Origin: Acidimicrobiia bacterium
GTDB lineage: Bacteria; Actinomycetota; Acidimicrobiia; Spongiisociales; Spongiisociaceae
DNA: 51,138 bases
Direction: 5' to 3'
Assembly (NCBI GenBank): GCA_011523395.1
Contig: WTGW01000083.1
Span: forward strand, 1 to 51,138
In this document: positions 9,705-15,913 of the stretch, piece by piece
How the letters are laid out: each line of letters begins with the position of its first letter
Numbering within the stretch: the stretch's first letter is position 1
Translations under genes and position numbers: made by a program
Notes under the pieces: model-generated
What the model was told of the DNA's origin: nothing
Database searches by the model: none
The model's input: the letters and a program-made list of their open reading frames with translations, nothing else

Positions 9705-9800
9705 CTCCCAGGATCCTCCAGTTCGGAGCCGGCCGGCCGTGTTGCAGCTCGCGTCATTCCCGCCACCGGCTCGCCGCGGGTGATACACTTAGCCCGAAGA

Positions 9801-9860
9801 CAGCGCCGATTTGATCAGTCAGCTTGCGGGCGCTCTAGAAGAACAGCTAAAGCGACCGGG
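9801..9860 (+). ncRNA. SAM-II (SAM-alpha) riboswitch aptamer
   Basis: P1 AGCGCC(9802-9807)/GGCGCT(9829-9834); GCGC-C-GATTT, CTTGC-GG-GCGC, and an 11-nt linker before GCTAAA, as in the Sargasso metX SAM-II aptamer recalled from memory; sits upstream of a methionine-cycle gene. Confidence 0.87.
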
Positions 9861-9882
9861 CACTTCCACAGGAAGAGTTCAT

Positions 9883-9910
9883 GGGGCCGCAGAAGCTGGG
9901 CGGCCCCTTT
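9883..9910 (+). terminator. Intrinsic-terminator-like hairpin downstream of the SAM-II aptamer
   Basis: GGGGCCGC-agaagctgg-GCGGCCCC followed by TTTCTC. Confidence 0.65.
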
Positions 9911-9963
9911 CTCGTGAAGGAGCCCTTCAGGGCACCGGCATCCTGGCGGAAACGGAGGAAGCC

Positions 9964-10989
9964 GTGTCCTCATCGAACCCTGCTGCCAGCACATCATCCG
10001 ATCGATTGCTCTCCGAGACGGGAATCCTGGTAGCTGACGGAGGCATGGGCACCAGCCTGTTCGAGTTAGGAATGCCGGCCGGCGCCTGTCCCGAGTTGCT
10101 GAACGTGGATTGTCCGGAGATCGTGATCGAGGCACACTCGGGCTTCCTTGATGCAGGATGCGACATCGTTCTCACCAACACGTTCGGGGCCAACCGGCGA
10201 CGGCTCGCCCTGCACGGACTCCAGGACCGGGTTGCCGAACTCAACATGGCGGCCGCGGCGCTACTCCGGCGGCTGGCCGGCTGTCTCGGACGACCCGTCG
10301 TGGTAGCAGGGAGCGTCGGGCCCACAGGTGACCTGCTGGCACCCCTCGGCCCGCTCGAGCACGGCGCTGCCCTCGACGTCTTCGCGGAGCAGATCGACGC
10401 TCTCGTGCGGGGTGGCGTCGACGTGGTCTGGATAGAGACCATGTCTAGCCGGGAGGAACTGGAAGCGGCGTACGAGGCGGCCCTGTCGTTCCGGACGCCG
10501 GTCGTGGCCACGATGAGCTTCGACACTCACGGACGGACCATGATGGGCTTTCGTCCCGAGCAATTGGCCGCCTGGAGCCGCGCTCAGGCCGTCCTTCCGG
10601 CGGCGGTCGGGGCCAACTGCGGCGTGGGAGCCGGCGACGTGGTGCTCGCCGTGAGCGAGTTGGCCAACGCAGACCCGGGAACGGCCATCGTGGCCAAGGC
10701 CAACTGCGGCCTGCCCGCCTACACCGAGGGACACCTGGCCTATCCCCATGGTCCCGAGATCATGCCCACCTACGTCGATCTGGCGATCAGGGCAGGGGCG
10801 CGGCTGATAGGCGCCTGCTGCGGGAGCAGGCCCGGACACATAGCCGCCATCAGGGAGGCGGTCGATTGCACGCGTTCCACCCGGGGGGTCACCCGCGAGG
10901 AGATCGCTCGCCGCCTACCCCACGCACCGCGTCCGTCCCGCCCGGCCCCGGCCCAGCGCGAGCGCCGCCGCCGGGCCGCCAGGACCTGA
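9964..10989 (+). CDS. Homocysteine S-methyltransferase family (betaine-homocysteine methyltransferase-like)
   Basis: GTG start at 9964 after cggaggaa; GILVADGGMGTSLFELG, GANCGVG, LIGACCGS zinc-binding motif. The upstream ORF extension lies within the riboswitch. Confidence 0.85.
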   Translation: MSSSNPAASTSSDRLLSETGILVADGGMGTSLFELGMPAGACPELLNVDCPEIVIEAHSGFLDAGCDIVLTNTFGANRRRLALHGLQDRVAELNMAAAALLRRLAGCLGRPVVVAGSVGPTGDLLAPLGPLEHGAALDVFAEQIDALVRGGVDVVWIETMSSREELEAAYEAALSFRTPVVATMSFDTHGRTMMGFRPEQLAAWSRAQAVLPAAVGANCGVGAGDVVLAVSELANADPGTAIVAKANCGLPAYTEGHLAYPHGPEIMPTYVDLAIRAGARLIGACCGSRPGHIAAIREAVDCTRSTRGVTREEIARRLPHAPRPSRPAPAQRERRRRAART

Positions 10990-12479: not shown

Positions 12480-13217
12480 TCAGCAGTTCCGCAGAGGGAT
12501 GACATCGGCAGATCCCTCGAGCACCTCGAGGGCAATGGTCAACGCGGCGGAGTTGCTCGTAACGACGGGTCGTTCCAAACGATCCTCCAGCGTTTCCCGG
12601 CTCTCCATCCCTCGGAGGTTCGTGCAGGAAACGAACAACACATCGAACTCGCTCGGGTCCGCATGCTGCTCGACGAATGCCACGATCTCGTCAGGTCGGA
12701 CCCGACCAATGGAGACATTGTCGTCAAGAGACATCCCTACGATGGATCTCACGGAAACACCACGCTCCGTCAGGGTCCCCGCTATAGCCACGTTCAGTTC
12801 CTCTATGTAGGGAGTAACAACCGCGACGCGGGCGTCTCCGTACCGAACGAGAACGCGGCTAATGGCTTCATTCGTGCTGATGACGGGCGCACCGCCGGAC
12901 TCCTCAAGTTCCTCCACAAAGCGCTCCTCACCTGACTTCCCGAGAAGGGCTGCCGCGCTGGTGCAGGAGAAGACGATTGCGTGCATGTTTGCTGTCGCCA
13001 GGTCGGCGGCCGCTCGAGGCACGAACGATTCCAACATTGCCCTCTCGGCGGATGCCGTTACTTCTTCCAGGTAGGCACGCGCAGTATGGACGGTTACGCC
13101 GTCCGGTACAGACCGCGCGAAGTCAGGCTCCGCAACAGTGTTGGACGAGGGGACGATGAGGCCCAGACGCCGTGGGATGGCGGATGCCTCGCGTGCTGCT
13201 CCTGCCACTTCTCCCAC
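12480..13217 (-). CDS. Maleate isomerase / Asp-Glu racemase superfamily protein
   Basis: RLGLIVPSSNTVAEPDF, AIVFSCTSAAAL, VLFVSCTNLRG (two catalytic-type cysteines). Confidence 0.82.
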   Translation of the reverse strand: MGEVAGAAREASAIPRRLGLIVPSSNTVAEPDFARSVPDGVTVHTARAYLEEVTASAERAMLESFVPRAAADLATANMHAIVFSCTSAAALLGKSGEERFVEELEESGGAPVISTNEAISRVLVRYGDARVAVVTPYIEELNVAIAGTLTERGVSVRSIVGMSLDDNVSIGRVRPDEIVAFVEQHADPSEFDVLFVSCTNLRGMESRETLEDRLERPVVTSNSAALTIALEVLEGSADVIPLRNC

Positions 13218-13374: not shown

Positions 13375-14457
13375 TCAGCTAGGGCGGGCGGCGTACCAGG
13401 GGTTGATGACCTTATCGATGATCTCCCGGCGCTGGTCGGCCGGGAGGAAGGCGCTCTCCATGGCGTTGGTGGTTAGCCGGTGCACCTCGGGCCAGGACCA
13501 GCCGAAGGCTTGGCAGCACCCGTCGAACTCGCTCGTCAGCGAGACCCCGCTCATGAGCCGGTTGTCGGTGTTCACGGTCACGCGAAAGCCCAGGTCGAAA
13601 AGTCGGCCGATCGGATGGGCGATCATCGACGGAACGGCGCCGATGTGGACGTTGGAGGTCGGGCACTGCTCCAGAGGGATCCTCCGGTCGCGCAGTTCCG
13701 CGGCGAGCGAACCCAGGGCTCCGTCCGCTCCGATGTCGTCCACAATCCTGATCCCATGGCCGATCCGCCGGGCGCCGCAGGTGTGTAGGGCTTCCCGTAT
13801 CGAGTCGAGGCCGTCCGCCTCGCCGGCGTGGATGGTGTAGGGCATTCCCGCCCGGCGCAGCAGATCGAAGGCCGCCAGGTGATCGGAGGGTGGATGACCG
13901 GCCTCGGCGCCGGCGATGTCGAACCCCACCACACCCCGATCCCGATGCCGGAGCGCCAGCTCGGCCGCCTCGAGACTGTGGGGACCGGTCCTCATAGCGC
14001 AGACCAGCAGGCCCATCCGAATGCCGCGACCGTCGCTCCCGTCGCGGAACCCGGCTATAGCGGCCTCGACCACCCTGTCGAGTGAAAGACCGCCCTCGGT
14101 GTTCAGCTCCGGAGCGAACCTGACCTCGGCGTACACCACGCCGTCGTCCGCCAGGTCCTGGGCGCATTCGGCCGCCACCCGGTACACCGCCCCTTCCGTC
14201 TGCATGACGCCGAGGGTGTGGCTGAACATCTCCAGGTAGAGATCGAGGCTGCGACGGCGAGCGCCCTCCTGGATCCGGGCCGCCAACTCGCCCGGGTCGT
14301 GGGTGGGAAGGCCCCGGTACCCGGTCTCCCGGGCCAGCTCGACGATGGTGGAAGGACGCAGGCCGCCGTCCAGGTGGTCATGGAGCACGACCTTGGGCGC
14401 CTGCCGCAGCCGGTCGAAGCCGGGGCTACCGCCTGCTTGGGAGGGTTCAGTGGGCAT
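13375..14457 (-). CDS. add: Adenosine deaminase
   Basis: PKVVLHDHLDGGLRP, YTIHAGEADG, RIGHGIRI, VTVNTDNRLMSG; start set to ATG 14457. Confidence 0.88.
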   Translation of the reverse strand: MPTEPSQAGGSPGFDRLRQAPKVVLHDHLDGGLRPSTIVELARETGYRGLPTHDPGELAARIQEGARRRSLDLYLEMFSHTLGVMQTEGAVYRVAAECAQDLADDGVVYAEVRFAPELNTEGGLSLDRVVEAAIAGFRDGSDGRGIRMGLLVCAMRTGPHSLEAAELALRHRDRGVVGFDIAGAEAGHPPSDHLAAFDLLRRAGMPYTIHAGEADGLDSIREALHTCGARRIGHGIRIVDDIGADGALGSLAAELRDRRIPLEQCPTSNVHIGAVPSMIAHPIGRLFDLGFRVTVNTDNRLMSGVSLTSEFDGCCQAFGWSWPEVHRLTTNAMESAFLPADQRREIIDKVINPWYAARPS

Positions 14458-14527
14458 CCGGCGAGAATACCGGTCGCGAGGTCCCGGCCCGGGCATCCAG
14501 GCGACATGCCGCGGACGCAGTCAGGGG

Positions 14528-15913
14528 CTAGTCGGCGCCTTGGGTCTCGCGGACGTGTTGGGGAGGGCCATCGGGGCTCACCAACCGACCCCCATTCTCC
14601 CCTATGACCCGGCCGGCATCGAACACGATGCGTCCCCGCGACAGGGTGGTGAGCACCTTGCCCTTGAGCTCCATCCCGTCGTACGCCACGGCGCTCCCGC
14701 CCGAACGGGCCAGGAACTCGGATGAACGGACCGTGCGGGTGGCCTCGGGATCCACCAGCACCAGGTCGGCCTCCGATCCCGCGGAGATGGTGCCCTTGCG
14801 CGGGTAGATGCCGTACAGCTTGGCGGGGTTGGCGGTCATCACCTCCACCGCTCGGGCGAGCGGGAGGCGCCCGGTCAGGCCGGCATCCAGCATCGCCGGG
14901 ACCAGCATCTCCAGGGAAGGAATCCCCTGCCCGGAATTCGCATAGGCGGCAGCCGCCTTCTCCTCCGGAGTGAACGGGGCATGGTCGGAAGCCACCACCG
15001 ATAGCGATCCGTCCGCCAGCGCCTCCCACAGGTAGGCGGGATCCTCCGCCGGGCGCAGCGGGGGCGCCACCTTCACGAAGTTGCCGAACTCGGGAATCGC
15101 CGACTCGTCGAGAAGCAGGTAGTGGGGACACGATTCGGCGGAGAGATCGGCTCCGAGTGCCTGGGCCGCCTGGACCTCTTCCATGGCCAGGCGGGAGGTG
15201 ATATGGACGATATGGGCGGGCGCACCCAGGTCCCGGACGATGGTTGCCACCAGGCCCACCGCCACGGCCTCGACCAGGGGCGGGCGGGCCGGGTGTCCGA
15301 ACCGGTCCAACTCCTCGCGGAAGAGTTCGATCATCTGCTGGCTCTCGGAGTGGACCGCGCACCTCAATCCGGTGCTCGCCACCGCGCGGAGAGACTCGAA
15401 GATGCCCTCGGGAGATCCTGCGCAGAGCCCCTCGAACTCGTCGACTCGCTCCGGCGGCGGATGGTGGGTGAACAGCTTGAACGCTATGGCCCCGCACTCG
15501 GCCATCGCCTCCGCCCGGGCCGGATCGCTGAATCCGGCGCCCGAGTAGAGGGCGAAATCGATCAAGCTCTCGGCCTCCCCCAGCTCCCGGCGGAGCTCGA
15601 AGGCCTCCGGGGTGCTGCACGGCGGGTTGGAGATCGGCATCTCGAACAGGGTGGTCACCCCCGAGGCCGCCGCCGCGCGCGATTCGGAGGCGAAAGTGGC
15701 TCGCTCGGGATGGCTGGGCGCCCGGCAGTGGAAGTGGGCGTCCACCGCGCCGGGAATGACCAGCAGGCCAGAGGCGTCAGTCTCCCCGCGCGCCGGGCCG
15801 AGGCCACCCTGGGGGGCGACCTCGACGATGCGATCGCCCTCCAAGCCGACATCGGCGGGACGGGAGAGGCCGTCGCTCACCACGACGCCCCCGACGATCC
15901 TCAGATCGAGCAT
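14528..15913 (-). CDS. Dihydroorotase/allantoinase/dihydropyrimidinase-like amidohydrolase
   Basis: GAVDAHFHCRAP, carbamylatable Lys in AIAFKLFTHH, VASDHAPFTPEEK, NPAKLYGIYPRKGTI. Confidence 0.85.
   Translation of the reverse strand: MLDLRIVGGVVVSDGLSRPADVGLEGDRIVEVAPQGGLGPARGETDASGLLVIPGAVDAHFHCRAPSHPERATFASESRAAAASGVTTLFEMPISNPPCSTPEAFELRRELGEAESLIDFALYSGAGFSDPARAEAMAECGAIAFKLFTHHPPPERVDEFEGLCAGSPEGIFESLRAVASTGLRCAVHSESQQMIELFREELDRFGHPARPPLVEAVAVGLVATIVRDLGAPAHIVHITSRLAMEEVQAAQALGADLSAESCPHYLLLDESAIPEFGNFVKVAPPLRPAEDPAYLWEALADGSLSVVASDHAPFTPEEKAAAAYANSGQGIPSLEMLVPAMLDAGLTGRLPLARAVEVMTANPAKLYGIYPRKGTISAGSEADLVLVDPEATRTVRSSEFLARSGGSAVAYDGMELKGKVLTTLSRGRIVFDAGRVIGENGGRLVSPDGPPQHVRETQGAD

Follow-up and report, generated by a model that had tools for sequence, protein, structure and literature searches.

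A SAM-II riboswitch precedes a betaine-homocysteine S-methyltransferase gene in a genome of the Acidimicrobiia (Actinomycetota), and the probability that it is functional there, turning the gene off when S-adenosylmethionine (SAM) is plentiful, is put at roughly 80%. SAM-II is an RNA sensor for SAM known mainly from Alphaproteobacteria. In the window, the 51,138-nucleotide stretch of contig WTGW01000083.1 analyzed here, the Rfam model of the class (RF00521, SAM_alpha) matched positions 9793–9871 of the forward strand over its full length (model positions 1–79 of 79) at 42.0 bits (E = 3.5e-6), above the gathering score of 36 bits. RF00521 was the sole family at or above gathering when the whole window was compared with all of Rfam by cmscan. 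The element had been proposed from the sequence in the initial annotation, which named the RF00521 search as a check, and the search agrees with it. A single copy was found in the 3.1-Mb host genome. A chance match is excluded because none of 14 control genomes matched and 8 of the 9 other genomes of the same genus carry the element; many relatives in the host order score below 36 bits yet retain the same core. Besides the match above gathering, the element has the P1 stem and H-type pseudoknot of the class, with a short distal helix that pairs natively, and it lies upstream of a gene of methionine/SAM metabolism (PF02574, NF005718). On these grounds, 9793–9871 is a genuine SAM-II riboswitch and a predicted SAM sensor. 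SAM-V (RF01826), a separate class that also forms a pseudoknot, lacks the final 3' pairing element, and lies near the start codon, was considered and rejected: only RF00521 exceeded gathering, the window element retains the 3' pairing element, and ~110 nt separate it from the start codon.

The P1 stem is formed by AGCGCC (9802–9807) and GGCGCT (9829–9834). Five of its six pairs differ on both sides between copies from Acidimicrobiia and Alphaproteobacteria, and within Acidimicrobiia it hardly varies, with changes at the outer pair only. Across P1 and the core pseudoknot, 98.4% of cells in the alignment are paired, with covariation in P1. The 6-bp P1, the GATTT directly after it, the CTTGC at 9823–9827, and the spacing of exactly 11 nt (9835–9845) between P1 and GCTAAA at 9846 were all placed correctly in the initial annotation. 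The crystal structure 2QWY was mapped onto the window by sequence, using what we take to be the 2QWY sequence. GATTT (9808–9812) corresponds to the loop L1 strand of the SAM-binding triplex (2QWY G8–U12), as judged by identity to the published pocket residues (PMC3764141), and ATTTG is invariant in alignment A2. The 5' strand of the core pseudoknot, TTGC (9824–9827; 2QWY U20–C23), pairs with 9846–9850, and GCTAAA (9846–9851; 2QWY G42–A47) supplies the 3' strand and SAM contacts; both are invariant in 52 sequences. The SAM pocket of 2QWY comprises U10–12, U20–C23, and G42–A47 (PMC3764141), and the window residues at 9810–9812, 9824–9827, and 9846–9851 are all identical to them. From this identity, we infer that the window aptamer would bind SAM. 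The base triples of the crystal structure, G8-C23-G42, U11-A45-U21, and U12-A46-U20 (PMC3764141), map onto the window as U9824-A9850, U9825-A9849, G9826-C9847, and C9827-G9846. An earlier suggestion that AGC (9821–9823) pairs with GCT (9846–9848) conflicts with these triples and is abandoned. The companion suggestion that GTC (9818–9820) pairs with GAC (9854–9856) is sound and identifies the distal pseudoknot helix, P2a. Its native pair count was 74 against a mean of 57 for swapped strands, and none of 1000 swaps scored as high (18 Acidimicrobiia sequences, with swaps that ignore relatedness); swapping scored by duplex energy was marginal (p = 0.07). The P1 sequence and score set the window copy apart from rhizobial SAM-II, and its 42 bits, well under the 57–87 bits of typical rhizobial copies, might be read as a sign of a degenerate aptamer that has lost SAM sensing. 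Such decay is very improbable given that every pocket residue is intact and invariant across the host order, that the linkage to one gene is kept, and that scores this low are also seen in alphaproteobacterial members of the subtype.

The methyltransferase gene spans 9964–10989 on the forward strand and encodes 341 aa from a GTG start. The frame from GTG 9964 matched PF02574 (2.5e-62) and reached 371.7 bits against NF005718 (PRK07534), above the curated NCBI cut-off of 338. The solved structures closest to the protein are methionine synthases, followed by betaine-homocysteine methyltransferases of mammalian type; glycine betaine is the presumed methyl donor, judging from the family assignment. 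The open reading frame originally supplied begins at TTG 9811. This start had been challenged in the initial annotation in favor of a ribosome-binding site followed by GTG 9964, a revision that we adopt. TTG 9811 falls inside the aptamer, and the frame upstream of the gene is not kept, since leader length shifts by single bases among close relatives (the distance from aptamer to start is mostly 111, 112, or 113 nt in the genus); GTG 9964 is therefore the likely start. A Shine-Dalgarno-like GGAGGA lies at 9954–9959, and GGAGGA/G precedes the start in relatives of the same genus. Full-length metH was not found in the host genome, although separate modules are present, and the metE-type domain gave weak matches alone, so the betaine-homocysteine methyltransferase gene may give the host an important source of methionine. 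Farther along the window, on the reverse strand, are genes for an EutA/arylmalonate decarboxylase-like protein (12483–13217), an adenosine deaminase (13378–14496), and an allantoinase-like amidohydrolase (14531–15913).

The leader offers a plausible basis for regulation. An extended -10 promoter box, TGATACACT, lies at 9781–9789 and would place the transcription start near 9796; a search for a -35 consensus was negative. Of 32 related leaders, 19 have TGNTANNNT in a comparable position, against a mean of 0.48 and a maximum of 3 after shuffling. The aptamer is followed by a terminator-like hairpin, GGGGCCGC AGAAGCTGG GCGGCCCC (9883–9907; -17.4 kcal/mol), which has the 8-bp stem described previously (9883–9890 with 9900–9907), a 9-nt loop, and an imperfect U-tract, TTTCTCG (9908–9914). 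A hairpin occupies the same place in most relatives; across the host order, most leaders have a G+C-rich hairpin between aptamer and gene, and its sequence differs between families. A generic scan of the leader for promoters and terminators found neither; it allows loops of up to 8 nt, one fewer than in this hairpin. The leader fold was no more stable than that of shuffled sequences (z = -0.31) in single-sequence folding with pseudoknots left out. These two results and the imperfect U-tract speak against a terminator here. The original proposal of a SAM-II element that is followed by a terminator-like hairpin and precedes a homocysteine methyltransferase gene is nevertheless supported. A small hairpin, CTTCC-ACA-GGAAG, also lies between aptamer and terminator (9863–9880), directly followed by an ATG (9881) in a different frame from the methyltransferase gene; the counterpart of this stem in one relative (L002) is TTTCC/GGAAC-like, and the small hairpin may be kept in the genus.

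The 3' part of the aptamer, CAGCTAAAGCGACC (9844–9857), is the proposed 5' strand of an antiterminator. Its duplex with the terminator hairpin, involving the 5' half and the loop of the latter, was calculated at -13.1 kcal/mol, whereas shuffled sequences averaged -7.7 (p = 0.023). The same pairing was found in several relatives from family f1 (p ≤ 0.003) and in f6 (p = 0.007); by duplex energy against shuffles, families f2 and f7 and part of f3 gave no significant pairing. The match to the aptamer model, the pocket residues, the helices, the gene linkage, and the spread through the order are computed results, to which the following scheme adds a suggested mode of action. Transcription would start just 5' of P1. 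Binding of SAM would lock the 3' strand of the aptamer (GCUAAAGCGAC) in the pseudoknot, the hairpin at 9883–9907 would then form, and transcription would stop; in the absence of SAM, GCUAAAGCGAC would instead base-pair with the hairpin (5' half plus loop), allowing transcription into the gene. The antiterminator would thus form at the expense of the pseudoknot strand and the SAM pocket. An OFF-switch working by transcription termination and antitermination fits the leader because the 5' half of the terminator can pair with the very aptamer strand that SAM would hold, and SAM-II commonly occurs with terminators in Proteobacteria (PMC1273637, PMC2258182). The aptamer might alternatively bind SAM and act on translation by controlling access to the ribosome site, with the hairpin incidental. 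The imperfect U-tract is compatible with such a mode, as is the preference of Actinobacteria for translational riboswitches (PMC2258182), and no clear terminator was seen in three of the leaders (L017, L019, and L023, from two f7 genomes and one f1 genome), which are short and whose riboswitch may act on translation. For the window, we consider translational control rather unlikely: its ribosome site lies ~95 nt beyond the pseudoknot, and the intervening RNA, as in most relatives, contains a strong hairpin able to pair with the aptamer strand.

The initial annotation had supposed a nonproteobacterial genome and, as one possibility, a wider range for SAM-II, and both points hold, the host belonging to the Acidimicrobiia and the element being present across one order of that class. 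RF00521 matched in 23 of 59 near relatives (host counted). Of 395 class genomes sampled, 31 had a match, and every one of these belongs to the host's own order (families f1, f2, f3, f6, and f7). In a draw of 397 genomes from the phylum, the window's copy alone matched, in a search of a size at which stricter filters can lose weak matches. All 32 aptamer loci examined in the host order precede a betaine-homocysteine methyltransferase gene, one of them a short fragment. The host assembly is a draft of 239 contigs with an estimated contamination of 4.98%, so that misbinned alphaproteobacterial DNA had to be weighed as the source of the element; the likelihood of this is negligible. It is refuted by the copies in 8 of 9 other Acidimicrobiia genomes of the genus, by the position of the element on a 3.0-Mb contig in one genome (G011), and by two genomes (G030 and G049) in which SAM-II shares a contig with a SAM-I riboswitch. 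A literature search for SAM-II in Acidimicrobiia found no paper and, as far as the literature found shows, the known range of SAM-II is extended to this class. The riboswitch class itself is known, and bhmT has precedent as its target in Pelagibacter.

SAM-II occurs in 141 of 289 sampled alphaproteobacterial genomes. The copies upstream of metA, metY, and metX share with the window copy the covariance-model aptamer, the pocket residues, a promoter in the leader, and frequent terminators (PMC1273637); the window differs in its host, a member of the Acidimicrobiia, and in its target, a betaine-homocysteine methyltransferase. Lower-scoring alphaproteobacterial copies include a subtype, GCGCC...CAGCTTGCGGGCGC...GCTAAAGCG (also GCGCC...CAGCTTGCGGGCGC...AAATGCAGCTAAAGCG), that is very like the Acidimicrobiia copies and whose core sequence is nearly identical to that of the window. 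Its downstream genes differ from the window's: among 40 low-scoring loci, metY-like, transporter-like, and other genes follow the aptamer (translations read by eye), and BLAST found a betaine-homocysteine methyltransferase downstream at none of them. Four low-scoring copies (L183, L184, L193, and L201) precede genes resembling ABC transporter substrate-binding proteins by eye (DYAYYNPVSL), and a divergent copy (L198, genome G823) lies upstream of a 175-aa frame that appears OsmC-like by eye.

The initial annotation raised the alternative that aptamer and gene were acquired in one transfer. A joint origin in rhizobia or other Alphaproteobacteria would account for an aptamer so like an alphaproteobacterial subtype, and SAM-II does precede bhmT in Pelagibacter (PMC5069961). 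The methyltransferase phylogeny points elsewhere. In a quick tree search, the SAM-II-linked proteins and that of UBA4744, in whose genome SAM-II was not found, formed one clade (SH-aLRT 100) that was sister to a clade of Alphaproteobacteria and other Acidimicrobiia, whose loci gave no SAM-II match, and was not nested among the alphaproteobacterial proteins. In the phylogeny called for earlier, the window protein thus falls outside the alphaproteobacterial methyltransferases. RF00521 matched at none of 60 scanned loci of methyltransferase relatives (L030–L091), alphaproteobacterial ones included, and the best-matching homologues in the order of G823, a 1.4-Mb alphaproteobacterial genome, are ~30% identical or less. 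With an aptamer resembling a subtype found before other genes and methyltransferases that form their own clade, joint transfer from Alphaproteobacteria is unsupported and quite unlikely. Transfer of the aptamer alone is possible and is the simplest reading. At two of the relative loci (L051 and L082), PYLIS_3, the pyrrolysine insertion element of mttB, matched barely above gathering near the methyltransferase gene.

The host genome also contains a second type of SAM sensor. Two SAM-I (RF00162) matches, at 69.8 and 66.8 bits (cut-off 44.4), lie on other contigs of the assembly (C36:21424–21506 and C207:853–935). An OsmC-like gene (PF02566) follows each of them, with an oxidoreductase-like frame next at the C207 site. 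SAM-I shares its ligand class with the window aptamer and is otherwise unrelated to it. At least 11 genomes of the host order have both SAM-I and SAM-II, against no overlap in the alphaproteobacterial sample between 4 genomes with SAM-I and the 141 with SAM-II. In G030 and G049, both from other families, the SAM-I on the shared contig lies, respectively, before a cystathionine gamma-synthase-like gene (L219) and in the neighborhood of O-acetylhomoserine sulfhydrylase-like genes (L222), as read by eye from translations. SAM-IV was considered as a local SAM sensor and rejected, with matches in 2 of 198 genomes of the class only. In 2007, Barrick and Breaker noted that no species was known to have both SAM-I and SAM-II (PMC2258182); later reports may exist.

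The nearest known parallel is Candidatus Pelagibacter ubique, in which a tandem of SAM-II and SAM-V precedes bhmT (PMC5069961, PMC2704228). The two systems are alike in placing SAM-II on a betaine-homocysteine methyltransferase and in transcription termination, which is proposed for the window; they differ in the tandem with SAM-V and in the alphaproteobacterial host, and putatively Pelagibacter-like homologues are distant from the window protein. In Ca. P. ubique, SAM riboswitches control both osmC and bhmT, the latter through SAM-II and SAM-V (PMC5069961). In the host, too, SAM aptamers precede the betaine-homocysteine methyltransferase gene and OsmC-like genes, so the logic of the two regulons is similar although the parts differ. 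For the order as a whole, a tentative reading, given slightly less than an even chance, is that this order of Actinomycetota splits the work within a genome between two unrelated aptamers, using SAM-II on the betaine-homocysteine methyltransferase only and SAM-I on other sulfur or redox genes, SAM-II having been acquired alone from an alphaproteobacterial subtype, placed on a resident gene, and kept as the families diverged. The greater interest lies in the spread of SAM-II across the order and in its sharing of genomes with SAM-I, which provide a natural case for asking why one organism has two sensors for a single metabolite and how an aptamer reaches a new gene.
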